Below, in pieces: positions 16,150-43,689 of a stretch of 64,000 bases of DNA. The notes below the pieces were generated by a model, which saw only the letters and a program-made list of their open reading frames with translations, had not been told where the DNA came from and made no database searches. The DNA is from Camillea tinctor (lineage: Eukaryota; Ascomycota; Sordariomycetes; Xylariales; Xylariaceae): the NCBI GenBank assembly GCA_022578605.1, contig MU394119.1, positions 62,001-126,000 on the forward strand, given 5' to 3'. How positions within the stretch are numbered: position 1 is the stretch's first letter; each line of letters starts with the position of its first letter. The translations under genes were made by a program, and so were the position numbers.

Positions 16150-19033
16150 ATACAGTCACTATCTTAGCGCATCTCTGGCCCTGTCGTGTCCATCTTGGAT
16201 CTCAACAGACACATGATACGCAATTCATCACCACTTTGCCTGCTTTACCCATACTTGCTCTGATTTCTCGGGTATCATGATGGTCGGCTCAACACTTTCC
16301 CCCACCACAGTCTCTTTAGACTACTTTGTCATGAGAGCTTGTTCTCTCTTTACGACATACGACACCGCTATGCGGAAATTTGGTGGATATAGTTGAAGCC
16401 CGACCTATTTGCACTGAGCGCACTTGACGGATGGTTTTACGGATATTACTCACTGAGGATCTTTTCACGGTACCCTTTTGTCGTTGGCAGGATGTTTATA
16501 GCTGTCTATAGTTCCAGGCCATTTGGATGGGATCCCCTTAGGCATACGAGTTTTCTAGGTGGTATTCTTGCAACCTTGGAGGAATCTTCCGAAAGTCTCA
16601 TCGTCTTTGGCTTCTTAGATAATGGTATGGCATACTATAGGCATTGCACATCATCTAGTCACCCCAAATAGGTAGATAGATCAATTGCAAACCAAAAAAA
16701 TAAAACCCATACTGATTTCTTTGAAATGTGATTGTGTGTTCTTTTTGAAGCTTTCGTAAATATTTTCTGTCTTTAACCCATTTCTCATAGCATTAACTAA
16801 TGATTTGTCGTAGGAGGAATATCTGTATTCTTTTGCTGCTTTTCTGTTCTTCAATTTCTTTATATTGCAAATGTCGTATTTCTGTGTTATACATATTTTG
16901 CATTTTTCATTTATCTGTCTTGGTGCTCAATTTCTACTTATAATGCCACTAATTGCTGTTCATCCCTATAGCATCTCCCGTTACGGTACTGATAAGCTCC
17001 AACGAAAGAGTATTGCTATAGGGGATTGAGAAACAATTATCCGGTCACAGCCTTGTCTACAAGGTTACAATACCACACTCAAGACGGCATTCAGTGTCTC
17101 TGTAGGTCGACACTAATGTGAGGATCCGAACTTAGCTTAGAAGATAGTCCATAGAAACTGCATGTGTGTAAATAGACTACGCCACTCTGCGTGGTAAGTT
17201 AGATAGCTTAGGTCTTTGCCCAACAACAAGTACGTTTTTCCCCATCTAGGTCTCTCATCATAACGTTTAGTGTCATCCTCATGGTAGTGCAGAATAAATA
17301 AAACTCCGGTATCAGATATCAACGACGGGAAGTCCTGTTTGTTAGTTGGAATTAGCCACATGTTCAGCGTGAGTCCGGGCGGTTAGCAACACGCTCCTCC
17401 ATGTTTCCCCTTATCCCCTGCATATACTTGTTGGTTGACTTGCTACTTTTGCGACGGAGGTTTTCCGGCCCCTTTGACATAGGTTATATTATTGGCGTTT
17501 TGGTTTTGTAGTTGAATAAGGGGGAAATGATATCTATTCACAGCCTACTTCACGTTCTACATCTGCAATGAAAAGGGAGGAATAATGATCCAATCGTCAT
17601 GATGTCACTTAATCAACTGTGTGTTCAGTCCCATTGATTGATTGCATGAATATTGACTTGTTTACTGCCGCGCGTCTAGGGCTGAGTGGTCAGGCTTCGT
17701 ATAGTTATCCACAGCCTCCATACAATAATAGGGCTATTAAAGGAGACGCGCCATATCTAGGGGTATAAGGTTTCCTAAATAGGATATAAGCTTCGAGAAG
17801 TCCAGCCGAGTGTTCTTCTCCCTGCATGTCTGACATTATAGCGGACTAGTAGCACTCATTCGCAATAAATAGTGTGTACGCCACGACGAGGGAGATGTGG
17901 CTATACATCCTTGGCCATACATTCATAGAAGACCTGCATGTAAAGCCAAGGCTGCATGAGTTTAAGTGATCCTGAAAAGAAATCTCCGAATGTCTGCGTC
18001 CCACCCAATGGTAGCCGATGATTGAGGTGGGTGTCGATGTATCCTCGGCTGGGTTAGTGATCAGATGTATTGCCACATCTTGGCCATATTGAATGGCGAA
18101 GCTACCCCGATTTGGATAAAATTTTGTATATTGTAGCCAATGGTATTGATCCATGATGGGCCATTCTTCATCAAGCACGGTTGTGATATTATCTGCTAAG
18201 CATGTCCTTACAAGATCGTCTATGCATCTCTCAGGGGTACATCGGAGATTTTACATCATGGTTCAGCTACTCAAGTAACCCATGTGTCTTCAGACGCTAA
18301 ATATCTGAGTGGTTGTTGATTATAAGGATAGGGGGCAAATATTTTCTATTGGCACTCACAGCCTTATGAATCTATTAGGTAGTCTTAGCCTCCGTACGAT
18401 AGACCTAGCCTCGCTAGTTTGGGAGTGATTGAGATATCTACTATGCGATCGAAACTAGTACCTAGAATTGAGAATAGTCACAATCTAGATGTAACTGTGT
18501 AAACTCAAAATTTATTCGATCCATCGCTGAGTCCGAACGCTAAAAGTCATAATACATAACAGAAAATATTTACATGATCTCATCCTATTCAGGGCTCAAA
18601 TCGTTCAAGTTCGGTTCGGACTTTCACTTCCTTAGTCTTTAGTTCCTCTAGTCATCATTTAATCCTACTTGATGTGTTTATTATTCAGTCTCGAAACCCA
18701 AACCACCACAATAGGAGTTTTAAATACATCTAAATCCGGCGCTCTGCACCTAAAGTGTCTTTCCCAATTCCAGTGTGACGAAATGTAGTTGAAGATCTAG
18801 AATAGATAATTATAATTTCGACATAAAAAAAGATGAAAAGGATCGAATTTTGGTTGCTGATTTATCGAATTGTTTCGCTCGTTATATATTCAGGGCTGTT
18901 TCCTAAACGTTGACACATCGGGAAGCTCCCTGAAAATATGGTAATAATGTGTATATTGAAAGGACCGAAAAAACCTCTCTCGTTACTCCCACCAATCCAC
19001 GGCCCAACCGGTACTGATTTATAGTGAATGAAT
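16150..19033. other. Gene-poor AT-rich stretch
   Basis: About 2.9 kb. The longest frames are 92 codons (16393-16671, plus), 74 (17137-17361, minus) and 110 (17846-18178, minus). The 110-codon frame has balanced composition but no motif and no support from splice partners; I leave it uncalled. The first several hundred bases are probably 3' untranslated sequence of the coiled-coil gene. Confidence 0.55.
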
Positions 19034-21618: not shown

Positions 21619-23419
21619 ATGGGTACCGATCCAGAGTCAGCCCCTGCTTCAGCAGAGCAGGGCGATAGCAGAATTCCATCACGACCATCGAGCAGTAATG
21701 ATCCTTCGGACGTTGAGAAGCTTGGGAGATGCAGGCCCGCGATTTTCAAGAACACCTGGGTCGAGGTTGGATTTTGTGTCTCGGTTTTAGGGTCGATGAT
21801 GCTGGCGGAATTCCTTGTTAGTGGTTTCAGTGGTAAGTACTGTTAAAAACAAGATCACGAACTTGTATTTCCTGTCTCAGAGAATGAGTTTTCCGTTAGA
21901 CTTATTGAAAATTAGAAGAAACTGTTTCCAAAATAACCATGAGAGACGCCAAAGTAATTACTAACCCTCGTCACTACAGTTCTGCTCCCGGTACTTATCG
22001 AAGACACGGGAATCGATCCGAATCAAAAGACCTGGCCGATTTCAGTTTTCTCTCTCGTAACCGGCTCGCTCCTTCTTCCCTTCGGCCGACTCGTCGACAT
22101 CTACGGCGGCTTTCCAGTTTACATCGGCGGCATCTCATGGCTAATGATTTGGTCGCTCATCGCCGGGTTCAGCCGTAACTTGCCCATGATACTCGCTACC
22201 CGAGCACTTCAGGGGGTAGGGGCAGCGGCATTTATGCCCGCCGGCACAACATTGCTAGGTACCACGTACCGCCCTGGACCGCGCAAGAATATTGTGTTCA
22301 GCCTGTATGGAGGCTGCGCGCCGCTGGGGTTTTACTCCGGTATCCTCATCGCCGGCCTGTGTGGGCAGTTTCTCTACTGGGGTTGGTTCTTCTGGATCGC
22401 GTCGATATTGCTGGCAGCATTGTGCATTCTTACATTCTTGTGCATTCCGCGAGAATTCAAGCACGGAGACCTGTCGTCTATGGACTGGCTAGGATGCATA
22501 ACCATCTTGTCTAGTCTCAGCTTGATCACGTATTCAATTACCGATTCATCCCATGTTGAGGGCGAATGGGCGTCACCGCAGATACTAGTAACGTTCATCT
22601 TGGGCGTTATTATTCTTGGTGCCTTTATATATATCGAAGGATGGGTTGCTAAAGACCCTTTACTGCCTTTCAGCCTATTTTCTATCAAGTACCTTGGACC
22701 CCTTTTCATCGCACTCTTTTTTGCGTATGGAAGTTTTGGAATATACCTTTTCTACGCAAGTTTCTAGTAAGTTATTTCGTTTAGGACTGTGCTCTAAGTA
22801 ATCAGGAACCCCCTAACTGAGTATTCCTAGCATCGAAACCATTCTCGAGGTCCAACCACTTCTTGCCGCAGTTTGGTTTACTCCTCTTGCTGTGGGCGGA
22901 ATGATTATCGCTGTGGTAGGAGGTGCTACTCTCCATAAACTCCCGGGAACCGTATTGCTTCTATTTTCTGGAGCCGGCTTTACGGTTTGCTCCCTGCTAT
23001 TCGCACTCATTCCTGAACATCCCAACTACTGGGCTTGGGTTTTCCCAGCAATGGTCTGTACCACTATAGGCATCGATATCAGTTTCAACGTTAGTGGGAT
23101 TTTTATCACGTCGAATGTTCCCAAAGACCAACAAGGTCTAGCGGGAGCTTGCATTAATGGATTGGTACTTTTGGGAATTAGCTTTTTCCTTGGATGGGCC
23201 GACTTCGCAGTCGGTAGTAGGTCGCATGATGGGCAGGGAGAAAGCTATAAGGTGGCGTTTTGGTTTGCGGCAGCATGTGGAGGAGTTGTCATTCTGGTGG
23301 TTCTGGCATTTGTCAGAATAGGTCGCGCCAAAAGTGAACTGACAGTAGAAGAGAAGACGGGAGCTCAGGAACCTACTAGTCATGAAAATCAAAGAGACCA
23401 GTCGGAGTTGATAAACTAA
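21619..23419 (+). CDS. MFS transporter, drug:H+ antiporter type (ATR1-like)
   Basis: Three exons (21619-21832, 21980-22766, 22831-23419) give 529 residues. Introns begin GTAAGT and GTAAGT and end TACAG and CCTAG. The start is the ATG of MGTDPES, after which about 50 polar residues precede the first helix. The MFS motif between helices 2 and 3 is visible as LLLPFGRLVDIYGG, and ATRALQGVGAAAFMPAG matches the next conserved block. About 12-14 membrane helices can be counted, and the C-terminus is polar. This group exports small organic molecules or toxicants using the proton gradient at the plasma membrane. It precedes the Zn2Cys6 gene by 0.9 kb and could be the exporter of the pathway at 30-44 kb (a SwnT-like role), but that is positional inference only. 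Confidence 0.85.
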
Positions 23420-24312
23420 CACGAGATGTCCAACAATAGTTTTAGTTCTAAAGTCTTTTTTCTTAGTCTTTTTAGTATAGATACCACCAAAAGTTTTTTT
23501 TAATAGAACATACATATTTAATCAACCAATAGACCATACACGGTTTTAGAAAACTAGACTCTTCTACTAGCTTGGCTAGACTATACTTAGCAAACTCATA
23601 TCGTAACATAGCCGAAACGATACGAAGCAATCATGGAACAAGAAATAGACGGCGACTGAATCGCGGGAAAAACGTGGCGTAGCCCTACACCACATAGGTA
23701 AGTTCATGCCAAGACGGTGGCTTGGGAAATATAGAGAGGCTTAGAATCAAAATAGTGGGTATAACGGAAATTGGACATTCAAGGCGCTTATGTCGTGACT
23801 AGACAGTATAGCAGCGGGTTGTCACGAAAGAAATGTAGTGAATTGTCATCGAGGAAAGCAGTTTCAACTCAGCGGACACTTGAGGGGGATCTACAAAATA
23901 ATCACTTTGTATAACGCAGGATCCACTATCAATAATAATAAATTGTTTCAACTCGATATACTATACTACTCGCTATAGAATCACGTTTGCAAGTCTATAA
24001 CTATAGGAAAAGTAGCATCTCCGGCCATTATGTAAGCAAGCGCGTGTTAGTGGGAGGCAGTGAAAGGACCAAGCCGTGGCGAAGTGTACCAAGACGCCAA
24101 GTAAACCGCCATAAAAGCGGGCGATTAATTTGTCGTTCAGTTAGAATTCAAAGCGGGATATGCATGAATAATTCCCGTAAGCCCACGTGTGTCCATGCGT
24201 TGCCGCCCAGGGGTATATGTTGTCTCGCATCCCCCAGATTCAACATGACGTTTTGAGGTTTGATGAAACAAGATCTATCAAGCTCTATCAAGCTATACTT
24301 GTTGACGACAAC
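23420..24312. other. Intergenic stretch upstream of the Zn2Cys6 gene
   Basis: About 0.9 kb, no gene seen. A CACGTG site lies at about 24183, and the decamer CTATCAAGCT is repeated at about 24274 and 24286, close to the regulator's start. These are possible control sites, weakly supported. Confidence 0.45.
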
Positions 24313-25985
24313 ATGGAATCGACGACGTTAGAACCGAACTACCCCTGGGCTCATGTGGCCGGACAGCAGAAATGCTGGACCTGCCGCAAGAAGCGGGTCA
24401 AATGCGATGGCTGTCTGCCCACTTGCTTTAAGTGCAAGAAAACTGGTCGCCAGTGTCTTGGGTACAGCAAGAACAAACCATTAGTCTGGACTGGAGTGGC
24501 AAGCAGAGGGAGGATGGCTAATAGGACTTTCGAGAACCCAGAAGCATTAACGTCTACAAACCTCCGGCCAGCACCGCCGAAACGGCTTTTGGTGAAGTCT
24601 TTAACAGAGCCTACCTTTAAGGATCTCAACGACAAGGCTAGCCAATATCTCTCTTATTGTACGCGGCAGCCCAACTCCCCCTTGCCTTGACTTGTGTGTC
24701 TCAGAGGCTCATGTTAATCACAGACATTCATCGATGCTGCATTGAATGTACTCTATATGGAGATGACTCTCAGAACCGGTTTAAGCACTTTATGGTTCTG
24801 CTGCCGGACAATCCCGTCTTGGTTCATATCATGATCGCCCTCTCCGCTACCCACCAAGCAAGCGCGGCAATATGTCCTCCTCGTACGCCTGAAGCTTCCG
24901 GTGCTTCGTCGGCATTGGCAGTTCTAAGACGCAAGGGTCTTCCTCGCTCAGACTCGAATAGCCTGACGCATCGCAATGATTTATTTTCAACTCAACGATT
25001 AGACGCCTTGTCTCATTTATCTTTAGGAATGGGTGCTCTTAGAGAAGCTGTCGCAAATGCCAAATATTCTGACGCGCTTATTGCTACAATTTTCCTGTTA
25101 ACGTGGATTGATGTGATGGAATCTAAGGGGTCGACCTGGAGACTTCATCTAGAAGGGCTCAAGACCCTTATATCATTACGGAGGAATCCTTCCTCGGAGG
25201 CAATCTCTGATTCCCAAAGCAATATTAATTCTCCCTTCCAGATATGGTTCGAAGATTTTTATACAGTGTAAGCAAACAGAAATCATCCTTCAAGCCTCTT
25301 CATACCTAACATCATTTAAAGGTTAGCAATATTCGGTTCAACGTTTGATCCCGGCAATTTAAACCTGCTCGACGCGGTCTCACGCTCCGAACTTCGGGGT
25401 ATACTCGACCGAGCCGAGTCCTACATGTGGAACGGGTGTCCGTCCGAACTTGTCTATATATTACATACATTCAACACGATAGCATGCGGGACTCTCCACC
25501 TACCGCCAGAGGATATTCCCGAGTTATTTGACCGTCTACGAGAATTCGATTGCGAGGCCTGGATGAGCCGGTCTGGCCGGGTATCAGCAAGACCTGCGAG
25601 GCGCTCGCTGGCCGAGGCCTGGAAATGCACCATCGAGATTTACGGTCTTCGGGCTCTGCGCGGCCGAGACCCGAGTTTCGACGACGTGCCCCGAGAGCTT
25701 GTAGATAATGCGTTCTTCCACCTAAGCCAGATTCCCCACGACGACACGCACTTTAAGGGGACGGTTTGGCCGGCCTTCGTCGCGGGTGGCGATGCACGGA
25801 CGGAGGAACACCGCCAGCTCGTGGTTGGCATTTTCGGTCACCTCATCGAGTTCTTGCACCTGTCGGTGCTGCAAATGGCGTACGAACGGCTGGAAAAGAT
25901 ATGGACACGCTCGTCACCCTATCCGCCAGGACGGTCGTGGGTGCACGATATATGGGATATTAAAGGAGGTATCCTGCTGCTGTGA
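24313..25985 (+). CDS. Zn2Cys6 transcription factor with fungal regulatory domain
   Basis: Three exons (24313-24658, 24724-25267, 25322-25985) give 517 residues. The binuclear zinc cluster is complete at residues 21-48: CWTC, six residues, Cys31, a six-residue linker, CFKC, six residues, Cys48. An extra cysteine (Cys34) sits in the linker. A basic Ser/Pro region follows, then a long helical regulatory domain of the kind found in fungal Fungal_trans_2 proteins (QYLSYY, IALSATHQA, a leucine-rich LLTWIDVMESKGSTWRLHLEG segment). Joins were chosen because they restore the QYLSYY-IHRCC and FYTV-LAIFG continuity. A GTATCC near the 3' end could be a further donor, so the C-terminus may be slightly different. 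It could control the nearby MFS gene or the NRPS-PKS locus; neither is shown by the sequence. Confidence 0.85.
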
Positions 25986-30519: not shown

Positions 30520-32084
30520 ATGCACTCTTCGTTTGTTTCTCTCACTCTGCTGGGCTCAGCTCTTGCTGCCCGGCCCTTCTTGAACGAGCCAGACACGGGG
30601 TTAGTGAGAACTTACCTATCGTGGATCGCACCTCTGTAATCACTAACAGAAACCTAGGTTTGATGAGTTCTTCTCAAGTCTGGCCCCTGGAGAGCTGCCG
30701 CCTCTCGATCAACTTGTTGGCCTCCCAGACTTCGATGCCGCTGCACGGCGGCATATGTCCACCCAGAACTATACGTATTATCGCAATGGCGCTGCTGGAG
30801 AGTGGTCATATCGAAATAATCTTGAGGTCTTCAACCGATATGTATTGAAGCCAAAGACTATGGTAGATGTTACAAACATTGAGTCGACGCTCCCGTGAGT
30901 AGAACCGTCACTTACCCCCCCTGGTATATGGGTCTCGTGACTGATCCTTAACACAGGACCACAATATTGGGTCATAACTTCTCAGCACCCTTTTTCATCA
31001 GCCCTTGCGCACGAGGAGGGTACGGTAACGTGGACGGTGAAAAGGGTCTGGTGGAGGGTGCTGCAGCTGGTGATATCCTATACATGGTAGGTTATCTCCA
31101 CCCTTTACTTAGGTTAATGTTAGGAGATTTCAGAGACTAACATAGGTTTTATAAAGCCTGCTATCTATGCTTCCTTGACGATAGAAGACATCGCAACATA
31201 CAAGACCGACGACCAGGTCACCTTCCAGCAGGTCTACCTTGATGGGAATGACACAGCGACACAACTCATCTTCGACCGTATCCAGAAGTCAAACAGCAAG
31301 GCCATCGTCTTCACCATCGACTCAGCTGCTGATGGTAACCGGCACCGGGCTGCTCGCTACGGAGTCGGATCTGCGTAAGTCTTTAATCCCAACTCTAGAC
31401 CCACCGAGAACAAAGCTAACGAGACGCGTATAGTGACTCGTCATACACCCTCATCACAGTGAGCCTTTTATTTGCGACTAAGACGCTGCCGGCATGAAGC
31501 ACTAACGGTTAAATAGTGGGACCTCTATGATCACCTCCGAACCATGACCGACCTCCCCATCATCCTCAAGGGTATCCAGACCGTCGAGGACGCGCAAGCT
31601 GCTGTCGAGCACGGCGTGCCCGCTATCTACCTGTCGAACCACGGTGGGCGACAGATCGACGGCGCGCGCTCGGCGTTCGAGGTCGCCATTGAAATCCACC
31701 AGAAAGCGCCCGAGGTCTTCAGCCAGCTCGAGGTCTACGCCGATGGCGGCGTGCGCTACGGGGCCGATGTCGTTAAGATGCTTGCTCTGGGCGTCAAGGC
31801 GGTCGGTCTCGGACGCCCGTTCATGTACGCTAATGTGTACGGCACTGAGGGCGTCACGAGAGCTATTGAGATGCTGAAGCACGAGGTTGCGATCGATGCG
31901 GCCAACGCAGGTATTGCGGATTTGCACAAGATTGATACGAGCGTTGTAAGTTGATTATCTTTCTCTCAGCGAAGACTCGGCAACTAGCTATCGGCCACCC
32001 GTGATTCTATAGCCCATTTCCCAAGACCAAGCGCTAACATTGGATTTGCAGATCGACTTGACCCCTAATAGTTACCAGGCGTAA
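30520..32084 (+). CDS. FMN-dependent alpha-hydroxy-acid oxidase/dehydrogenase with signal peptide
   Basis: Seven exons (30520-30599, 30658-30894, 30957-31086, 31157-31374, 31434-31458, 31517-31945, 32052-32084) give 383 residues. All introns are GT..AG. Residues 1-17 are a signal peptide ending ALA. The family's TIM-barrel motifs follow: TTILGHNFSAPFFISPCA, LPIILKGI, the active-site SNHGGRQID (His base and Arg), YADGGVRYGADVVKMLALG and GLGRPFMYA. Such enzymes oxidise 2-hydroxy acids (lactate, glycolate, mandelate type) to 2-oxo acids with FMN. There is no cytochrome b5 domain. The loop between the substrate-lid region and LPIILKGI is short. It converges with the NRPS-PKS gene, 652 bp apart. 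It might supply or process an acid for that pathway, or simply be a neighbour. Confidence 0.82.
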
Positions 32085-32736: not shown

Positions 32737-35700
32737 TTATTTGATCAAGCCGGCCTTGTATATGCGATCTAAATATGTACTGACAAATTGCTTGTCAAGT
32801 GGCGGCGCAGGAAATGCCTCGTTTCCAAAGACGTACTCTCCAACTGATGAACCCTTAAACATCGTGGCTGCGGTTTCGTCCGTGTAGCCATCGAACACAG
32901 CAGCGATGCGAGCTAGTGGGCCTTTTGTATGAGTAGTAGCGTGGTCCAATGCTCGCTTCTTCCATATGTCAAAGGGCACGAGATCTTTCTTACCGTTCAA
33001 GCCACCCAGCAGCTTGAAAAAGTCATCGCAGGCTGGTGCACACGTATTCAAGAAATCATAGTCTCGACCTATCCGGTGTAGATCTCGTGTCATGACAGCA
33101 ACGATGGTTTGGCTCAGATAGTCGACGGGTAGCACGGCGGACATATCAGCATCCAAGGATGGGAACGCTCCTATGTCAAGACTCCCCACGATCAAGTTGT
33201 GTAAAAAGTCTCCGCGATCCAGCCGGAAATGGCCAGTCGACGTTGAAGCTGTGACGTAGGGCAAACGGTAGACAGTCGCCCTGGCGCCGCGCCATCGAGC
33301 GGCTGCTACCAGCCTCTCCGCGAGGTATTTCGAGGTTCCGTAGCCATACTCTTGGTCCTCCTCGGTGAGGTCTAGACCCATGTGCTTAGGCAATGTGGAG
33401 ATTGTAGACACAAGATGGACTGCCTTGGCACGGCCACGCGAGGCGAGGCGCAGAATCTCGTGCGCGCTAACAATATTGGGGCCAACATAATCTTCAAGGG
33501 GTCGCATCCAATCGACAAGGCCACCGGAGTGGCAGATGGCGTCAACTTGATCTGCTAAGTCGCCAAACTCATCCTCAGCCAAGCCAAGCAAGGGTTGGCT
33601 CATGTCGCCAACTACTGGACTGATCAACGACGCAAAGTTGGAGTCCCAGAGACTATAACTTTCAAGAATACTCTCCACTCGTTGCTGTGCCGTATCGACA
33701 CAATCGGCACGTACGAGGCAATATACGGTAATGCCCTGTTTCAGCAGCTCACATAAGATAAAGGCACCGACAAAGCCTGTAGCACCCGTGAGAAATACCG
33801 ACTTGGGACACGTAGTACAGCTAGCTGAATCTCGAGTTACGTTGTCGAACGTGAAGCTGCTATCGAGACAGCCTCTGCGGACTGCAGCCATGTTCAGAAG
33901 GGGAGAATCAGGTATCGTGGTAGCCAAAGTTGCACTGCTAGATACCGTTGTTGTAGACGATGTGTCTGTGTCTCGAAGCTGAGACAACAGAGACTGGCTG
34001 AGTGCTTTCAGGTTCGGATGAAGGAAAGCGATATTTACAGAGAGTGTCAGGCCTGTCAGTGTCGCCAAGTGATTGCGCATCTGGACTGCGGTCAAAGAAT
34101 CGATTCCAATGTCTTGTAAAGATCGGTCGACATCCACATGAAGCGGATGCGCAAAACCCAGAGTCTTAGCGACCACTTCTCGGGTCATGTTTAGGACAAT
34201 ATCGGCGTGCTCTCCGGTTTCAGCTTCGCTTAACATTTTACACAGATCCCACCCTCGGGTGAGTTTTTTAGTTCTCCCTATTCTATTCAAAAGCGACTGG
34301 AGAAAGACTGGTATATCACCGCGCTCCTCAAAATAGGCTTGAAGCCGCACCAGATCAAGTGCCGCTGCTACAGTCAATGCTCGAGAGCTGTCGACAGCCT
34401 GTTTGAATAAATCTAGCCCATCTTCTAATGTTAAGGAATCAAGGCCAAATTGAGTGAGGTGAGAAACGGTGGTCCCAGCAAGCCTCGAAGCCATGCCGGT
34501 GCCCGCCCAGGTGCCGTACGCTATTGAGGTTGCTGGCAAACCCTGGGCGCGCCGCAGATGCGCCAGCGCATCGAGGAAGACGTTGGCTGCCGCATAATTC
34601 GCAAGGCCCTGCATACCCATGACACCAGAGATAGAAGAGAACATCACAAAGAGGTCAAGATCCATGTTTTTAGTGGATTGGTGTAGAAGCCAAGAGCCAC
34701 ACACCTTCGACGCAAGTGCCTTTGCACATCGCTCTGGTGTCATGGCCAGGAGAACCCCGGAGTCTGACACACCTGCTGCGTGCACCACACCCCGTAGTGG
34801 CCGATCCTTGTTAAATGTTGCCATGATTGACTTGACGCTTTCTGGATTGGTTATATCGCTGGCTACTACGGTAACTCTGACGCCGAACCTAGAGAGTTCA
34901 GTTACCAATTCATCTGCACCGGAAGTCTCTATGCCACGGCGTGAGGTTAGTACTAGATCGCGGATATCGTGTTCACTCGCTAGCCACCGTGCTACATGAG
35001 CTCCCAGATTACCTAGTCCACCTGTTACAAGAACTGCGCCATCTGGCCGGATAAGTCGTCGTTTGGCTAATGGCTTTGGGACCGAGTTGACGCGCTGCAT
35101 CCGCGGAACGAGCACTTTATCCCGACGTATGGCACATTCTGGTTCAGAATTCAGCATCAACGCTGCTACGATGCCGGTGCTTGTTTCCTCGTCAAGATCG
35201 ACCAGGCGTAACTGCAATTCCGGATGTTCGCTCCTAGCAGTCCTCATTAAACCCCATAGCGGCGCCGCTCCGAGATTCATGACTCTATCGTCGGACTCGA
35301 TACCCACACCGACCGCACGATGAGTGGCCCACACCAGGGGCGGTATGAATTGAGTCTCGGCTGCCGTCTGCAGCTGTGCTAGCGCCTTGGTGACAAAATC
35401 CCCCGCTTGGAATATAACATCATCATCTGAATCCCATAAGCATATTAGACCATCCAGCTTTTCAGCCTGTTCGAGATGTTCAACTTTGGCTAGTCGAATA
35501 CCAGCGCCTGATAGGACACCTGTTATATGCTCTACCCACGTCGTATGATTATCTATAAGCAAAAGACCCCAGGTTCCGCCAGAATAGACATTGTCTATCT
35601 TGACCGGATGCCATACGACCTCAAACTGGAAACGCCCTTGGTCGTCTTGGGGGGCCCGCGTAGTGATACTATCGATACCATTAGCAGCACCGCCACCTAG

Positions 35701-38700
35701 CTGCATGTCACGACGAACAAGACACTCCCGTTGAAAGGCATATGTGGGGAGTTCTACCCGCTGGCAGCTAAACGGTTCAAAATAGGCATGCCAATCAAGA
35801 GGCACGTGTCGCATGTGTAGATCAATAATACTGCGTTGAAGGGCCAAGGCGCTGTCTTGGCGAGGCATGAGAGATGACAGCCAAGCGACAGATTTGCTTC
35901 CGTCATCATCTGCAAGAGAAGCTATGCCCATTCCACAGAGTACTGGCCGTGGCCCTAGCTCGAGGAAGACATTGACCCCGTGACGGGCAAGCGCTTGGAT
36001 ACCATCATTAAAGCGGACTGGCTCGCGTACTTGCCTAACCCAATAATCCGCTTCTTCAAGCTCGCCAGCCTTAGCCAGTCGACCTTCCCGGCTGCTAATG
36101 ATACTCAGCTGAGGAGGGTGAAACTGTATGGTCTCAGCTATGGCCCGGAAGTCTTTCTGCATACCATCCATATAATGCGAGTGGAAAGCATGCCCGACCA
36201 CAAGTTGTTTAGTCCTACGGCCTAACCTAGCGAAGTGGTCCGTTATGTTTTCAATGGCAACAGCGTCGCCGGATACGACTGTCTGCATTGGGGCGTTATA
36301 AGCAGCGACGTCGACCTCACCACTATACCCTAATTGTTCAATTCCTATCGATACCTCAACAGCGCTGGCGCCAAGCGATACCATGCTACCACCAGTAGAT
36401 TGAGCTTCCATCAACCGACTACGCGTTGCGACTAATCGACAAGCATCGGACAGATCCAAGATCCCAGCTACGTGAGCGGCCACAAGCTCGCCTAAACTAT
36501 GACCAAGGACAAACTCTGGCTTCACGCCCCAGCTCTGCCAAAGTCGCCATAGTGCTACCTCTAAGGCGAATAGAGCCGGTTGGGCGAAATCGGTACGATT
36601 CAAAAGCGTGGAAATTGTGCTATCAGGGTCCGCCCACATAACATCGAGTAGCGGTAATTCTAACTCCGTAAATTCGGCCGCGATCTCGGTTACAGTTTCG
36701 CGAAAGATGGTGTAAGTCTCGCAGAGGTCCTTACCCATACCTGGCCATTGACTGCCTTGACCGGTGAAAAGTATAGCGAGTCGTGGCACCTTGGGAGTTT
36801 CGCTATCGGGTAATGCGAAGATGTCTGGGTGGGCTACCGACTCTAGCTTCTCCAACAGCTCAGTTTTGCCCTCGGCTAGCAATGCCAACCGCTTGCGGAA
36901 ATGACTGCGGCTGGTTGCCAGCGAGTAGGCCACGTCTATGAGACTATTCTGACTAATAGTGTTCTTGATGTGCCGATAAAGTTTCTCGGCCTGCATACGC
37001 AGGGCTGCGTCCGAGTCCCCTGAAAGGAGGAACGGCATAATGGAAGGTGGCCGAACCATTATCTTCTCATTATCAACAAGATTAGTTGGTCTCGGTGGTT
37101 CCTCAAGTATTGCATGGGCATTTGTGCCTCCGATACCGAATGCACTCACTCCAGCTCGGCGCACCCTCGTCTCTTGCGATAGCCAGGGTCGTTCACTCTG
37201 TACCGGGGCCATATTGGCACTCAGCCAGTCTACTGCCGGAGTAGGCTTGACAACATGCAAAGTTTGGGGTAGGGTGCTATGTCGCATAGCTAGGACTACC
37301 TTTAATAAGCCTACGAGACCAGCTGCGGCTTGAGTGTGGCCTATATTAGACTTCGCCGAACCGATCCACAGAGGTTCTGCATTGGCACGACTGGGGCCGA
37401 ATACCTCCGCTAGTGCTGTAGCTTCGATTGGGTCACCTAGCTTAGTAGCAGTGCCATGAGCCTCAATATAGTCGATATCATCAGGCTGGAGTCTGGCTGC
37501 ACTTAGTGCTGTGCGAACAAGCCGTTGCTGAGCAGAGCCGCTTGGGGCTGTTAGGCTGGCACTGCGGCCGTCATGGTTGACAGCGGTACCGCGTATGACA
37601 GCATGTATAGGGTCACCATCTCGTTGAGCGTCAGATAGTCGCTTAAGAACTGTGACGACAGAGCCTTCAGACCATCCAGTGCCTTGAGTGTCGGCAGAAA
37701 AAGCCCGACAACGACCATCTGGTGACATACCTTGTAGCCGGCTGAATTCCACATGCATTCCGGGATTGAGCATAAGACTTACACCACCAGAGACGGCCAA
37801 GTCGCATTCACCCTGGCGCAGTGCAGTGCATGCTAGATGGGTGGTGACTAACGAGGAGGAACACGCAGTGTCTATCGTCATTGCCGGGCCCTCTAACCCT
37901 AGTATATAGGAGATGCGCCCAGATATAGTACCACCAGCCGAGCCTGTCACCGTATACCCATCAAGATCGGTTAGATCTCTGATGCCAGTTGAGTTGAATC
38001 CAAGATGGGCCAAGATATTGCTAGTACCGATGAAGACTCCAGTTTGGCTACCACGCAACTGTTCCATAGTATAGCCCGCACGCTCGAATCCTTCCCAACA
38101 AGTTTCCAACATTACGTATTGCGAAGGGTCTAGCGAGCGTGCCTCTCGTGGTGAGATGCCAAAAAAGGTCGCGTCAAATGAGTTGATTGAAGAAATGAAT
38201 CCACCTTGACGAGAATATGATTTCCCTTGAGCGGCTGGGTTGGCATCATATAAGGCATCGGCATCCCAACGGTCCTTAGGCACATCAGTGATGGCGTCGC
38301 CACCGCGCTCGAGCAATTCCCAGAATTCCTCCGGAGTGGTGATGCGACCAGGTAATCGGCATGCCATAGATATCACCGCGATATCCTCAGTATCATCCAC
38401 GTGGTGTCGTTTAGTTGTAGGTTTGCGGTTAGCTGGGCTAAGAGAACCTGCCAGATATGCTGCCAATGTCTTGACCGTATAGTATTCGAACAGTTTGGGA
38501 GACGGCACCGGCCGCCCTAGTAGGGTTTGGAGCTCATATTGAATGCGGATGATACGCGCCGAGTCCCCGCCAACCTCGAAGAAATTATCATTCACACCAG
38601 CACGATCATGGCCAAGAACCCTCGACCAAATTTCAAGTATCTGGTGCTCTAACTCAGTAGCAGGCTTCATATTGCCTGTAGTCTGAATAACCGCCACTGG

Positions 38701-40257
38701 ATCTGGAAGTGCATCACGGTCAATTTTACCGTTAATCGTCACTGGGAAAGTTTCCATCTCGACGAAGAATGCTGGAACCATGTAAGTTGGCAATCGCTCA
38801 ACCAGCCAAGGGCGTAACACACGGTCAAGCGCTTCCTTGGCTTCAAGCTGGCTCCCAGGCAACCCCGTCTGTTTGACACAATAGGCAACTAGTCGGTCAT
38901 CACGACAAACCACAACTGCGCCGGAGATGTCCTCACGCTCAGCAATGGCCGCTTCGACGTCACCCAGCTCAATTCTGTGACCTCGGATTTTAACCTGCCT
39001 ATCAATACGACCTATTAAGCTTAATTTGTCGGACGTCAGCATGCAGGCAAGATCGCCAGTTCGGTACATCAGGCCATCGTGAAATGGATTGTCGAGGAAT
39101 CGAGAGCGGCTAAGTTTGATGTTGTTACGATAGCCACGTGCCACACCAGCCCCTCCGATGTACAGCTCGCCGGGGGTACCAAGTGGTACTGGTGACAGGT
39201 GCTCATCTAGCACGTAAAGACGGCCGTTAGTTATTGGATTTCCAATAACCACATCATGACCTTGCCGCACCTTCCATATACTCCCATAGACAGTTGCTTC
39301 GGTTGGGCCATACATGTTCCACACCTCGTCACCGCAAGCCAGCAACCGCTCGCCTAGTGGTCGAGACAGTGCTTCACCACCGCAGAATATTTTTGCAAGC
39401 CGAGGCTGGCCTTGCCACCCTGAGTCCAACAACATTTGCCAAATCGCAGGCGTCCCCTGCATTATGGTGATTTCATGGCGCTCCATAAGCCTAACAAGGG
39501 CGACTGTATCTTTTATTTCATGTCTTTGTGCGATTACAGTTGTTGCTCCGCACAGTAGAGGGAGAAATAACTCAAGAACTGCCATATCGAAAGACACTGT
39601 AGTGATAGCAAGCAGTCGATCAGTCTCACTACACCCAGGTTCTTCCCGCATCGATAATAGTAAATTTGCAATATTTCCGTGGCAGACCTCAACCCCCTTG
39701 GGCCGGCCAGTCGAACCGGAAGTATACATAACATAAGCAAGACTGCTGCTCTGAACTGGCACACTAACGTTACTACTGCCGATGCCTTCCTGGTTTATAA
39801 TGGCCAGTAGCTCGTCAATGCTCATGCATACGCTTCTCCAGGAAGCGAAGCCCCCAAGCGCATCGTCACCGGTAATGACTAGCTTCGGACAAGCATCATC
39901 CATCATTTGATTGATGCGTTCTGCAGGAAACGCTGGGTCAATAGGTATGTATGCTGCGCCTGTCTTCATTGCTGCTAACAATACTGCGACAAGGTGGACC
40001 GAGCGGTCCAAGGCCACACCGATGAGGTCGCCATGACTAATCCCTCGTTGAATAAGGACTCTAGCCAGACGATTCGTTAATATATCGAGTTCAGAGAAGG
40101 TAAGTGTTGTGTCAGCACAAATTAGGGCGATCTTGTCGCTGTAGTCTTCTGCCACCTTTTCGAGAAGCCGGTGTAGACATAACCCCAGTGTCGTGGGATC
40201 ATCAGTGTCGTTGAAGCCTCTAAGACTTGTCTGGCACTTTTCGGAGATAAACCTCAT
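32737..40257 (-). CDS. swnK: Hybrid NRPS-PKS, SwnK-like (A-T-KS-AT-KR-T-R)
   Basis: One intronless frame of 2506 residues. Domains in order: adenylation, about 25-525 (YTSGSTGRPKG at 178-188, GELYIGG, YRTGD, NGK with Lys511); carrier with Ser566 in GGDS; ketosynthase, about 625-1055 (Cys799 in DTACSSS, His934, His974); acyltransferase, about 1158-1450 (GQGSQWPG, Ser1254 in GHSLG, HAFHS as in malonyl-specific ATs); ketoreductase, about 1735-1925 (TGGLGNLG, Ser near 1875, Tyr1888); second carrier, Ser2054 in GIDSL; terminal reductase, about 2150-2506 (TGATGFVG, YGYGTSKY). No dehydratase, enoylreductase or condensation domain is seen. This is the SwnK order, known to condense pipecolate with malonate and release the product reductively on the way to swainsonine, an alpha-mannosidase inhibitor. 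All catalytic residues I can locate are present. It is divergent from the reductase gene. An SwnK paralogue with another substrate is the alternative. Confidence 0.9.
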   Translation of the reverse strand: MRFISEKCQTSLRGFNDTDDPTTLGLCLHRLLEKVAEDYSDKIALICADTTLTFSELDILTNRLARVLIQRGISHGDLIGVALDRSVHLVAVLLAAMKTGAAYIPIDPAFPAERINQMMDDACPKLVITGDDALGGFASWRSVCMSIDELLAIINQEGIGSSNVSVPVQSSSLAYVMYTSGSTGRPKGVEVCHGNIANLLLSMREEPGCSETDRLLAITTVSFDMAVLELFLPLLCGATTVIAQRHEIKDTVALVRLMERHEITIMQGTPAIWQMLLDSGWQGQPRLAKIFCGGEALSRPLGERLLACGDEVWNMYGPTEATVYGSIWKVRQGHDVVIGNPITNGRLYVLDEHLSPVPLGTPGELYIGGAGVARGYRNNIKLSRSRFLDNPFHDGLMYRTGDLACMLTSDKLSLIGRIDRQVKIRGHRIELGDVEAAIAEREDISGAVVVCRDDRLVAYCVKQTGLPGSQLEAKEALDRVLRPWLVERLPTYMVPAFFVEMETFPVTINGKIDRDALPDPVAVIQTTGNMKPATELEHQILEIWSRVLGHDRAGVNDNFFEVGGDSARIIRIQYELQTLLGRPVPSPKLFEYYTVKTLAAYLAGSLSPANRKPTTKRHHVDDTEDIAVISMACRLPGRITTPEEFWELLERGGDAITDVPKDRWDADALYDANPAAQGKSYSRQGGFISSINSFDATFFGISPREARSLDPSQYVMLETCWEGFERAGYTMEQLRGSQTGVFIGTSNILAHLGFNSTGIRDLTDLDGYTVTGSAGGTISGRISYILGLEGPAMTIDTACSSSLVTTHLACTALRQGECDLAVSGGVSLMLNPGMHVEFSRLQGMSPDGRCRAFSADTQGTGWSEGSVVTVLKRLSDAQRDGDPIHAVIRGTAVNHDGRSASLTAPSGSAQQRLVRTALSAARLQPDDIDYIEAHGTATKLGDPIEATALAEVFGPSRANAEPLWIGSAKSNIGHTQAAAGLVGLLKVVLAMRHSTLPQTLHVVKPTPAVDWLSANMAPVQSERPWLSQETRVRRAGVSAFGIGGTNAHAILEEPPRPTNLVDNEKIMVRPPSIMPFLLSGDSDAALRMQAEKLYRHIKNTISQNSLIDVAYSLATSRSHFRKRLALLAEGKTELLEKLESVAHPDIFALPDSETPKVPRLAILFTGQGSQWPGMGKDLCETYTIFRETVTEIAAEFTELELPLLDVMWADPDSTISTLLNRTDFAQPALFALEVALWRLWQSWGVKPEFVLGHSLGELVAAHVAGILDLSDACRLVATRSRLMEAQSTGGSMVSLGASAVEVSIGIEQLGYSGEVDVAAYNAPMQTVVSGDAVAIENITDHFARLGRRTKQLVVGHAFHSHYMDGMQKDFRAIAETIQFHPPQLSIISSREGRLAKAGELEEADYWVRQVREPVRFNDGIQALARHGVNVFLELGPRPVLCGMGIASLADDDGSKSVAWLSSLMPRQDSALALQRSIIDLHMRHVPLDWHAYFEPFSCQRVELPTYAFQRECLVRRDMQLGGGAANGIDSITTRAPQDDQGRFQFEVVWHPVKIDNVYSGGTWGLLLIDNHTTWVEHITGVLSGAGIRLAKVEHLEQAEKLDGLICLWDSDDDVIFQAGDFVTKALAQLQTAAETQFIPPLVWATHRAVGVGIESDDRVMNLGAAPLWGLMRTARSEHPELQLRLVDLDEETSTGIVAALMLNSEPECAIRRDKVLVPRMQRVNSVPKPLAKRRLIRPDGAVLVTGGLGNLGAHVARWLASEHDIRDLVLTSRRGIETSGADELVTELSRFGVRVTVVASDITNPESVKSIMATFNKDRPLRGVVHAAGVSDSGVLLAMTPERCAKALASKVCGSWLLHQSTKNMDLDLFVMFSSISGVMGMQGLANYAAANVFLDALAHLRRAQGLPATSIAYGTWAGTGMASRLAGTTVSHLTQFGLDSLTLEDGLDLFKQAVDSSRALTVAAALDLVRLQAYFEERGDIPVFLQSLLNRIGRTKKLTRGWDLCKMLSEAETGEHADIVLNMTREVVAKTLGFAHPLHVDVDRSLQDIGIDSLTAVQMRNHLATLTGLTLSVNIAFLHPNLKALSQSLLSQLRDTDTSSTTTVSSSATLATTIPDSPLLNMAAVRRGCLDSSFTFDNVTRDSASCTTCPKSVFLTGATGFVGAFILCELLKQGITVYCLVRADCVDTAQQRVESILESYSLWDSNFASLISPVVGDMSQPLLGLAEDEFGDLADQVDAICHSGGLVDWMRPLEDYVGPNIVSAHEILRLASRGRAKAVHLVSTISTLPKHMGLDLTEEDQEYGYGTSKYLAERLVAAARWRGARATVYRLPYVTASTSTGHFRLDRGDFLHNLIVGSLDIGAFPSLDADMSAVLPVDYLSQTIVAVMTRDLHRIGRDYDFLNTCAPACDDFFKLLGGLNGKKDLVPFDIWKKRALDHATTHTKGPLARIAAVFDGYTDETAATMFKGSSVGEYVFGNEAFPAPPLDKQFVSTYLDRIYKAGLIK

Positions 40258-40873
40258 CTTTTCTGTTAATAGTATTGCTAGTATAAGTGATACTGATGTT
40301 GCTATATTCCACGCAACGTATAAAACTTCCTGACATAAATCATATATTAGGAAGAAACTTGCATATTTTAATAGTGTAGTTGACCAGACTTGTCACAAGA
40401 ATCCTCGGTCTGAATGATAAAAAGTAACTTGGAAACACTTTTACAAGCAACTAGACCAAAGCTGATCATATTCATCATAACAAATAGGCAACAGCTAAAT
40501 AGGAAACCCTTCCGTCTTGTCTTTCAGTCTGCCGTACGCAGGTCTAGTTTAAGTGGGCTCATCCATGTAGCAGCAGATCCCCACGAGACATACTGTTTTC
40601 AATATCTTCTACGATCCTATTTGTCATATTTTGTATGGCGCACTTGTACCAATATGCATGCTTCGGGGGGTAACTTTTGATATCGATGGCCGGTTTTGAA
40701 ATCCTGGCACCTTTGCCTCATGCTTTAGACTGCAGCATCTCGTCTAAAAAAGCCCCCAACGATATTACGTTATTTTCCCCGCGTCTTCCACAACTCACCA
40801 CATATCACTCTTGTCACCTATTTTCTACGAGCTCAAAGTCTCGATACCGTGGTCTTTTCAACATCTACACATC
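40258..40873. promoter_or_regulatory. Bidirectional promoter of the synthetase and the reductase
   Basis: 616 bp separate the divergent start codons of the NRPS-PKS (minus) and the NmrA-like reductase (plus). The half next to the synthetase is AT-rich with several TATA-like words; the half next to the reductase is C/T-rich leader sequence. A shared control region would co-regulate the two genes. I could not single out a convincing factor-binding palindrome. A short 88-codon frame (40414-40680) inside has no motif. Confidence 0.55.
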
Positions 40874-41943
40874 ATGGCCGTTGTTGCTGTCGCCGGTGGC
40901 CTTGGCGACCTAGGTCGCCTCATCACGGACGCCATAGTTAAAACTGGCAAACATGAAGTTTACGTCATGTCAAGAAAGGTAATTAGGAAACATATCCAAT
41001 GATCCATATCACATCACTAACCACGGGTACACAGACTGTTCCGAACAATCCCAGCCACATATCGCCATTGACTGGCAAAAGTTACGAGTCTATTATTCAG
41101 ACTGACTACTCTTCCGAGGATGCCCTAGCTGAGCAACTCACGAAGCATCGTGTTAACGTCGTTGTCTGCACCTTCATTATGGATTCTGACCAGGTGTGCG
41201 ATGCGGAGCTACACCTTATCCGCGCCGCCAACCGATGTCCCTCTGTCCGGCGCTTCATCCCCTCTGAATTCAACGTCGAGTATGATGTCGGGGATGATGT
41301 GCTTCCATACCCGGAGAAGAAATATCATCTGATTGCTCGGCGAGAGCTAGAGAAGACAAGCACTCTCGAGTATGCGTATCTCTACCCGGGCATGTTCATG
41401 GACTATTTCGGCTTGCCACGGGTGGCAAGCAGTCTTCGGCCTCTGTGCTTCTTCGTTGACCCAGAAAATGGACTGGCAGTGCTACCAGGAGATGGGGAAG
41501 CGAAGATGAGCATGACGGTTACCATGGATGCCGCGCGGCTTCTAGCGGCCGCGCTCGAGTTGGACGCATGGCCGCGGATCCTAACTACGGCCGCAAGCAC
41601 CATCTCACTCAATGAGCTTGTCAGACTCTACGAGAAGGCTCTGGGTCATAAGCTTGAAGTGCGCTATCTGCCAGTCGACAAATGGCTCAAGCATGAGACC
41701 GTAGACCTCCCGGCGAATATAGACATCGCAAAGGGGTATCCTGAACGGTTCCCTCAGGGATTAGATCAGCTGCGGCCGCTAGTCGCTGATCTCGAGGCAG
41801 GTGTTGCACTTGGCGCATTCGACTTCAGTAAGTTGGACCAAAATCAGCACCTCGATCTTGTCAAGGCATTGGAGGGAAGAGTCCCCGCGCCAAAGCGCAT
41901 CGAAGAGTTGATTGAGGAAGCTTGGAAGCCGGTCTCCGGTTAG
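40874..41943 (+). CDS. NmrA-like NAD(P)-dependent reductase (SwnN/SwnR-like)
   Basis: Two exons (40874-40978, 41035-41943) with a 56-bp intron (GTAATT..CACAG, branch CTAAC) give 337 residues. The N-terminus is a Rossmann strand and loop, AVAGGLGDLGRLI, followed by the end of strand 2 (VYVMSRK); the RRFIPSEFNVEYD segment is characteristic of isoflavone-reductase/NmrA-like proteins. The catalytic region near YPEKKYHLIARRELE and the C-terminal NELVRLYEKALGHKLEV segment fit the same family. In the swainsonine pathway two such reductases, SwnN and SwnR, reduce cyclic imines (of the indolizidine and of the piperideine carboxylate). Divergent pairing with the synthetase favours a role on its product, but the sequence alone does not tell me which of the two this is. 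Confidence 0.85.
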
Positions 41944-42831
41944 TGAAAGAGAGCTATGCCGGCTTTCCCGAGCTCTCACAGGTTAGGATCAGCGCATGAT
42001 GTAAGCCCGCTAGCTACCTGGGTAGTTAATATTGTGCATGTCGTATATTTCAATCCCTGAAATAATGTCACCGTCAGGGTCTCTCGCGTAAATCTTTCTG
42101 CAGCCACATATAGATCAATAGGCAGCTGTTTCCCTCAGTACATTAAAAGTCGCTTCATATAAATATAAGAGAAAGGTATAGGCAGGTTCGTTCAAGGACT
42201 ATAGTTCAGGGGTTATCAAGCTATATGTACAAAGTCACCTCCTAGTTTGAAATCTAGGCTGATCCTTCTATGCAACGCTGCTGTATGATTATCTAAGTGG
42301 AAAACCACGACGTTTCCGCCCCCAAACTGCAAGAAACTTACAGAAGATAGTGTGCATGGTTCCATTATTCGCAATATGTGGGAAAGGATCCTGAATCGTG
42401 GGGAGCGGTGAATCATATGGGGACGGCAATACTGTTAGTAAGAGTGGACTGTAGGAATCATGGATCTACGGGGCGCATACATAATATCTGGTTATACTAC
42501 TCTTGTATGCTTGTTGCCTACTACCATCATATCATTGAAAATATACGTTATCCTCAAATATGATCACGGATCTCGCCACCTCGCCTACCTTGTTTACCTT
42601 CGCCCTGCTTCCTGAAATGAGAAATAGGATGGCCTGACTTTTGATAGGTAGGTAACCTTAAAGCCTTCCAAATTTCTTGGGTATGTCTCTTCGGCTGTGT
42701 ACTAATGATATAAATTTATTGATTTCCATTGGGACTAACTATTGAAGTCGTCACAACCCGCGGAGAATTTCCTTCGGCACCCCCAAGTCATACATATCCT
42801 TTGAACCCACATTACCACTTTTTGAGGTAAC
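41944..42831. other. Intergenic stretch between reductase and dioxygenase
   Basis: About 0.9 kb, AT-rich. Small frames of 60-66 codons on both strands show nothing. The last 100 bp are the leader of the dioxygenase gene (ACATGTCTAAAG start context). No swn-type gene is hidden here. Confidence 0.55.
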
Positions 42832-43689
42832 ATGTCTAAAGCTACACCCAAACTCCAGCAAGTCAAGCACTCGGAAGGGCGTGACACCATCCTAAAAGCC
42901 CTTCAAGAAGATGGCGCTGTCATCATTAAAGGTCTATTCACGAAAGACCAAGTGCGCCGTCTAAATGAAGAGGTGCAGCCCGCTGTAGACAAGCTTCAAG
43001 CGGGTGGCAAGCACCTAGATGAGTGGGTTAAAGACTTCCACGGTGACAACACCAAACGCTTGAACAATGTCGTCTCGCTGAGCAAGACCTTCCGTGAGGA
43101 GATTCTGGAAAAGGATCTGATCCACGAGCTGTGCGAAGAGATCTACTTGAAGGATGCAGGTGGATACTGGATGAACTCTGCCCAGGTCATCGACATAGGG
43201 CCAGCCAGCAAGGCCCAGCCATTACATCGGGACCAGTGGCAATTCCCCATCTTCACACACTGCGGGCCCAACGCGCCGGAGGCCAGCATCAACTTCGTCG
43301 TAGCTCTGACGGAATTCAGCGACGAGAACGGGGCGACCAGGGTCATCCCCGGCAGTCACAAGTGGGACGATTTCCAAGCAAATGGCACCCCGGAAGACAC
43401 TATTCCCGCGGAGATGGAGGCAGGTGACGCATGCTTCATCACAGGAAAGGTAGTCCATGGAGGTGGTGCTAACAGGACCAAAAACCAAACCAGGAGAGGC
43501 ATAACTCTCGTCTTTCAATGCTCGTACCTGACCCCTGAGGAGGCATACCCCTTTTTGGTCGACAGGGAGATCGCCAGAACGCTCAGCCCGCGAGGCCAGC
43601 GCATGATTGGGTTCCGGTCGCAGTTCCTGAAGGATAGTCCTGGGGTATGGAAGCGTGACTATAGTGAGCCGGATGAAGTCTATTGTTAA
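42832..43689 (+). CDS. PhyH-type Fe(II)/2-oxoglutarate dioxygenase (SwnH-like)
   Basis: One exon, 285 residues. The iron ligands are visible: the His-x-Asp pair in PLHRDQWQFPIF (about residues 125-136), with the distal His in KVVHGGGANRT, about 80 residues later. A downstream Arg (TRRGITLVF) is placed to bind 2-oxoglutarate. NGATRVIPGSHKWDDF is the conserved PhyH loop before the distal His. Enzymes of this group hydroxylate or desaturate small molecules, using O2 and 2-oxoglutarate in the cytosol. The swainsonine pathway uses two, SwnH1 and SwnH2; only one is seen here and I cannot say which it matches. It is read in the same direction as the reductase, 0.9 kb downstream. Confidence 0.88.
   Translation: MSKATPKLQQVKHSEGRDTILKALQEDGAVIIKGLFTKDQVRRLNEEVQPAVDKLQAGGKHLDEWVKDFHGDNTKRLNNVVSLSKTFREEILEKDLIHELCEEIYLKDAGGYWMNSAQVIDIGPASKAQPLHRDQWQFPIFTHCGPNAPEASINFVVALTEFSDENGATRVIPGSHKWDDFQANGTPEDTIPAEMEAGDACFITGKVVHGGGANRTKNQTRRGITLVFQCSYLTPEEAYPFLVDREIARTLSPRGQRMIGFRSQFLKDSPGVWKRDYSEPDEVYC

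Follow-up and report, generated by a model that had tools for sequence, protein, structure and literature searches.

Gene content of the K-N-H locus

A 64,000-nt window (the whole stretch of DNA analyzed here) within the 44.7-Mb assembly of Camillea tinctor (Xylariales) carries three adjacent genes, K, N, and H, which specify a SwnK-type nonribosomal peptide synthetase-polyketide synthase (NRPS-PKS), an NmrA-like reductase, and a PhyH-type dioxygenase, respectively. An A-T-KS-AT-KR-T-R synthase with such neighbors is easily labeled a swainsonine locus, as it was in the first-pass annotation of this DNA. We instead consider it likely that K-N-H is a three-gene biosynthetic unit, sister or paralogous to the swainsonine (SWN) cluster, that makes a cyclic-amine alkaloid other than swainsonine. 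This reading draws on gene structure, domains, motifs, clade, co-conservation, and oxygenase type as observed and extends them to a predicted substrate, order of steps, and product. The features of the locus are as follows.

32737..40257, minus strand: K, SwnK-type NRPS-PKS of 2506 aa, A-T-KS-AT-KR-T-R, one uninterrupted frame (translation and Pfam)
38725..40164, minus strand: A domain (AMP-binding plus C-terminal part), code DMLQICMVYK (Pfam, motif-placed positions)
38452..38643, minus strand: T1 carrier domain, GGDS (Pfam and motif)
37252..38388, minus strand: KS domain, DTACSSS / EAHGT / KSNIGH (Pfam and motifs)
35806..36771, minus strand: AT domain, GHSLG / HAFH (Pfam and motifs)
34504..35040, minus strand: KR domain (Pfam)
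34078..34113, minus strand: T2 carrier motif DIGIDSLTAVQM (motif only, no Pfam edges)
33103..33792, minus strand: R domain, NAD_binding_4 / thioester reductase (Pfam and NCBIfam)
40258..40873, no strand: K-N intergenic stretch of 616 bp, genes divergent (gene coordinates)
40874..40978, plus strand: N exon 1, 35 codons, Rossmann motif GGLGDLG (coordinates)
40979..41034, plus strand: N intron, GT...AG, 56 bp (coordinates)
41035..41943, plus strand: N exon 2, 302 codons and stop, NmrA-like reductase (Pfam)
42832..43689, plus strand: H, PhyH-type Fe(II)/2-oxoglutarate dioxygenase of 285 aa; HRD 132-134, H209, RR 221-222 (Pfam and alignment)

Pfam recognizes AMP-binding, PP-binding (two stretches), the N- and C-terminal ketoacyl-synt families, Acyl_transf_1, KR, and NAD_binding_4 in K, and NCBIfam concurs on A, KS-AT, and R. 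The Pfam output places only the first PP-binding stretch; the second carrier motif stands at residue 2049, between KR and R. The motifs GGDS, DTACSSS, EAHGT, KSNIGH, GHSLG, HAFH, GIDSL, TGATG, and YGTSK are all intact, with HAFH presumably marking a malonyl-type AT. The single frame, the Pfam order, and these motifs bear out the synthase and catalytic residues described in the first-pass annotation, as do the scores of N in the NmrA family (43.3 bits, cutoff 27) and of H in the PhyH family (133.5 bits, cutoff 22) for its flanking genes. For the reductase, that annotation had not listed the first exon. A public C. tinctor protein of 337 aa (P0241) matches both exons, each translated separately, and is 100% identical over exon 2. 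H lies on N's strand, 888 bp beyond N, and the 616-bp spacer between the divergent K and N genes is a candidate shared promoter.

Phylogeny of K and conservation of the unit

At an E value of ≤0.001, homologs number 7966 for K, 4260 for H, and 199 for N exon 2, which is not due to chance; the best 120 matches for each were listed. The closest named relatives of K among them come from Biscogniauxia sp. (81% identity), Whalleya (78%), and Xylariaceae sp. and Pseudomassariella (77%). K shares 56.3 to 58.2% identity with seven SwnK-clade sequences, which share 73.7 to 85.6% among themselves, 62% with Slafractonia leguminicola SwnK-like protein 1 (P0057), and 56% with Metarhizium majus SwnK (P0055). 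In the available parts of Cook et al. (PMC5473758), SwnK orthologs share >70% identity and the S. leguminicola paralogs 53 to 55% with SwnK, which leaves K below the level of an ortholog.

The tree of K was built from the best 120 of 7966 matches: 100 sequences of 1900 to 2950 aa, taken as fungal, with three bacterial sequences from the remaining 20 as the outgroup (17 excluded). FastTree placed K inside a 61-member group that joins a nine-member neighboring group with support of 1.0, apart from both a seven-member SwnK clade (1.0) and a 14-member clade with S. leguminicola SwnK-like 1 and a Diplocarpon mali protein (1.0). The SwnK clade is anchored by P0055 alone, itself SwnK by inference, its six other records bearing either no name or just "polyketide synthase," and the D. 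mali protein of the SwnK-like clade (P0112) is, as we assume from species synonymy, the SwnK-like2 of PMC7864672. Maximum-likelihood trees of 44 sequences (IQ-TREE) recovered K's group (19 sequences) and the SwnK clade (5 sequences) with support of 100 each. In approximately unbiased (AU) tests on the same set, forcing K together with SwnK was rejected on the whole protein (p = 6.6e-06) and on the A domain (p = 0.0058), as was forcing it with eight SwnK-like1/2 sequences of the S. leguminicola and D. mali type (p = 0.0047). On these tests, neither the whole protein nor the A domain of K belongs to the SwnK clade. The first-pass annotation had held that KS and A domains outside that clade would refute its reading; the A domain does lie outside, and the KS-alone tree also puts K outside (98), but the AU test on KS does not reject its union with SwnK (p = 0.181).

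The P0055 record repeats an AT stretch, perhaps an assembly error, and its genome match to K jumps from query residue 1131 to 1451. Actinomycete synthases of about 3800 to 4100 aa (P0062, P0066, P0093, and similar) share 60 to 67% identity across 41 to 43% of K and represent a bacterial branch of its family; their extra Pfam domains are, by accession, presumably DH, ER, and methyltransferase.

Equal size of contig records served as a proxy for a shared contig in the 97 tree sequences that had one (3 of 100 had none). Because only the best 120 matches per protein were listed, the co-occurrence counts are lower bounds among the matches listed. Within K's group, K, N, and H occur together in at least 19 of the 59 members with a contig, C. 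tinctor included, N only in at least 17, H only in at least 7, and neither in 16. The neighboring nine-member group has H in at least three and N in none, and neither was seen with the SwnK (7), SwnK-like (13), or other (9) sequences. Among these matches, N thus accompanies K solely inside K's group, and H solely there and in the neighboring group. Locus tags for K, N, and H are consecutive in Pestalotiopsis fici, Thyridium curvatum, and Anthostomella pinea. That N and H accompany K in this way is the strongest sign that the three genes would serve one pathway rather than being an SWN remnant.

Endocarpon pusillum, which we take to be a lichen-forming fungus of another class, has adjacent K (P0008, EPUS_05757) and N (P0256, EPUS_05758) genes, whose products are 76% and 75% identical to those of Camillea. 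In the tree, the Endocarpon K falls within Xylariales sequences, which together with the high identity suggests horizontal transfer. In Madurella fahalii, K, N, and H lie on equal-size contigs, and a K of the C. tinctor group is also present in M. mycetomatis (P0023, P0027, P0136, and P0273 for the two species); both are presumably mycetoma agents.

Accessory enzymes, predicted product, and alternatives

Among solved proteins, H scores far higher against EasH (214.6 bits) and PrhA (201 bits) than against swnH1 (77.8 bits) and swnH2 (67.3 bits). Neighbors closer to unrelated families than to SwnN/R and SwnH were the other ground on which the first-pass annotation would have been refuted, and H is indeed much closer to EasH/PrhA/AusE/AsqJ-type oxygenases; the scores class it as an EasH/PrhA-type oxygenase, not one of the SwnH1/SwnH2 type. 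This distinction rests on sequence scores and not on structure matches; swnH1 and swnH2 are absent from the best 50 of the latter, which is no evidence either way. In sequence and fold, the nearest solved relatives of H are EasH, PrhA, AusE, AsqJ, and FtmOx1, whose substrates, by structure titles, are meroterpenoids, cyclopeptin, fumitremorgin, etc., whereas H is predicted to act on an alkaloid base. We know of no such oxygenase next to a SwnK-type synthase. Since this subfamily includes members that desaturate, epoxidize, or rearrange, the exact step of H cannot be named. HRD 132-134 and H209, presumably the metal-related residues (HxD...H), are invariant in 33 of 33 aligned sequences. N is a divergent NmrA-like protein, and none of its best 120 of 199 matches shares a contig with a SwnK-clade synthase. 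The closest solved folds to N are plant isoflavone, pinoresinol-lariciresinol, and phenylcoumaran reductases (query TM score, 0.61 to 0.72), which differ from it in substrate, with 17 to 22% identity and a root mean square deviation of 4.8 to 7.5 Å. In the C. tinctor genome, a search for further close copies of H and N found none.

With positions placed by motifs in the standard numbering of the NRPS specificity code, the A code of K is DMLQICMVYK, compared with DMLQICV-YK in six SwnK sequences, DMLQVCV-YK in P0055, and DILQICMVWK in S. leguminicola SwnK-like 1 and D. mali. One position varies within K's group (L, V, P, F, or I). In the A5 segment, YGPxETT-YG, one residue is missing from seven of seven SwnK sequences (P0103, YGPCE, by eye) and retained in 51 of the 61 members of K's group, those readable by pattern. 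The pocket of K is near that of SwnK, for which pipecolate is taken as the substrate (PMC5473758, in part), yet different; pipecolate is thus likely, though unproven, for K. As proof of this substrate the code was rejected as too weak, since SwnK-like and bacterial sequences carry similar codes and it discriminates poorly.

The published scheme, in the portions available, has SwnK turn pipecolate and malonyl-CoA into 1-oxo- or 1-hydroxyindolizidine and SwnN act as the reductase, after which SwnH2 gives 1,2-dihydroxyindolizidine and SwnH1 completes swainsonine (PMC11477355, PMC12025043). By analogy, K would activate a cyclic amino acid, pipecolate being the best guess, and load it on T1 for a single malonyl-CoA extension by KS-AT and reduction of the keto group by KR. 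The R domain would release an aldehyde, whose ring closure with the amine would give a bicyclic iminium, and N would reduce this iminium or a 1-oxo intermediate to a 1-hydroxyindolizidine-type base. The product of K would be a hydroxylated cyclic amine, probably a 1-hydroxyindolizidine. H would oxidize the base, whether by hydroxylating it, desaturating it, or forming a ring, and the plainest forecast for the final product is a mono-oxidized 1-hydroxyindolizidine. The separate family branch and the different oxygenase make another small alkaloid than swainsonine the most likely product. Of the "swainsonine-type core" first annotated here, the architecture and SwnK-type chemistry stand; the identification with swainsonine does not survive the separate clade of K and an H unlike SwnH.

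Several observations weigh against a product other than swainsonine from a distinct three-gene unit. Besides the KS test, the base of K's 61-member FastTree group is nearly unsupported (0.015). Joining the whole group with SwnK was not rejected (AU value, 0.90), with the constrained tree outscoring the free one by 68.6 log units; the free search was thus imperfect, and SwnK may be the sister of K's group, with close chemistry. Of the nine gap-free positions of the A code, K differs from six of the seven SwnK sequences in one (M instead of V) and from P0055 in two, a near identity that fits the same substrate. The A5 deletion is not limited to SwnK, as it also occurs in seven of the nine neighboring-group sequences. 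Finally, for 17 of the 59 group members, the matches listed include N alongside K without H; H may be optional or may have been missed outside the best 120 matches.

A true but reduced swainsonine cluster, with K, N, and H as SwnK, SwnN, and SwnH and the remaining genes elsewhere, would explain the shared domain order, the same two accessory Pfam families, the near-identical A code, and the KS-only AU result. We nevertheless judge it highly improbable, as K lies outside the SwnK clade and under the ortholog level of PMC5473758 (available in part), H is not SwnH-like, and only one dioxygenase gene adjoins K. A genome search with P0055 revealed no second SwnK-type synthase: with 17 of 174 first-look candidates scored, it returned 21 rows beyond the two of K, at 26 to 42% identity and all in KS-AT (query residues 599 to 1443). 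Five other PhyH loci were found in the genome; none of the four compared with solved structures matched swnH1 or swnH2 best, and one partial exon was ambiguous. Within the window, a true SWN cluster is rejected on the clade and identity of K and the type of H.

A slaframine-type pathway, to which the SwnK paralogs of S. leguminicola are suspected to belong, is scarcely more probable. The two alkaloids of that fungus are alike in structure, a SwnK paralog is suspected for slaframine (PMC5473758, in part), and K is closer to its SwnK-like protein 1 than to M. majus SwnK (62% versus 56%), but the AU test sets K apart from the SwnK-like1/2 clade. Moreover, no aminotransferase was recognized among 19 further window open reading frames (ORFs) scanned, from which intron-split genes could escape, and their sole acyltransferase signal was subthreshold and on an MFS exon. 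Less remote, although still unlikely, is the use by K of an acyclic or other amino acid, leading to a 2-substituted 3-hydroxypyrrolidine or a pyrrolizidine rather than an indolizidine. In its favor are the departures of the pocket from that of SwnK (the A5 residue, and M in place of V), a code position that is variable among members of K's group, and a release logic that would equally yield a five-membered ring if K started from other amino acids; against it, the code is still very near that of SwnK, with its presumed pipecolate substrate (PMC5473758, in part).

Published relatives and neighboring genes

The SWN cluster of Metarhizium, Arthrodermataceae, and Alternaria sect. Undifilum resembles K-N-H in the domain order of its synthase and the adjoining NmrA-like reductase and PhyH dioxygenase. 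K-N-H differs in having a synthase of another clade (56 to 58% identity), an A5 segment without the deletion, and a single EasH/PrhA-type oxygenase versus SwnH1 plus SwnH2, which are both required in Metarhizium robertsii (PMC9030584, in part). swnR, swnT, and swnA were not recognized in the window ORFs scanned, and no reference-sequence comparison was made for them. Xylariales have been reported to contain SWN clusters (PMC8403587 and PMC9030584, in part); judged by the features above, K-N-H is not of that kind. SwnK-like clades have already been noticed in print: the available parts of the Marssonina coronaria genome paper describe SwnK-like1 and SwnK-like2 clades with no experimental member and note SwnN and SwnH next to SwnK-like1 (PMC7864672). 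These clades and P0057 share K's domain order and lack an experimental product, and P0057 and the D. mali protein form a clade separate from K's. K-N-H itself is real and widespread among the matches listed. If SwnK-like1 includes K's group, its "SwnH" needs relabeling. In the portions available of literature outside subscription, we found no product reported for any SwnK-like protein apart from SwnK itself, and a search on lentiginosine biosynthesis brought up no report naming lentiginosine among the best 15 of 9,367. Camillea is named in none of the best 15 of 29,472 papers in another search, and four papers mention Camillea tinctor. The curvulamine (cua) pathway was set aside, as the main text of PMC13113314, in the part available, contains none of the terms SwnK, NmrA, NRPS-PKS, dioxygenase, and PhyH.

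We see an even chance that K-N-H represents a third, widespread, Sordariomycetes-centered class of SwnK-type pathway, in which the K-N-H core with its EasH/PrhA-type oxygenase would yield an undescribed bicyclic amine, hydroxylated or oxidatively rearranged, or a 3-hydroxypyrrolidine, swainsonine being one of several products of the family. A member of K's group in Paramyrothecium foliicola (P0047) is publicly labeled "Reducing polyketide synthase swnK"; if the group makes another product, swainsonine labels mislead toxin risk calls. The group might then hold unexploited small cyclic amines, possibly glycosidase inhibitors, and with it the question of which product comes from which SwnK-type clade, that of the slaframine synthase included, can be tested cleanly.

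Elsewhere in the window, two frames overlap on opposite strands, 14737-16149 (plus, 470 aa) and 14773-16155 (minus, 460 aa), the former with no Pfam match in the portion scanned. An FMN-dependent dehydrogenase exon (FMN_dh, 172 bits) at 31517-31954 (plus) ends about 780 bp from the stop of K, convergent with it, and may or may not be part of the cluster. MFS transporter exons and, after them, a Zn2Cys6 / Fungal_trans_2 regulator (21958-23419 and 24301-25985, plus) lie some 7 kb from K and are candidates for its transporter and regulator.
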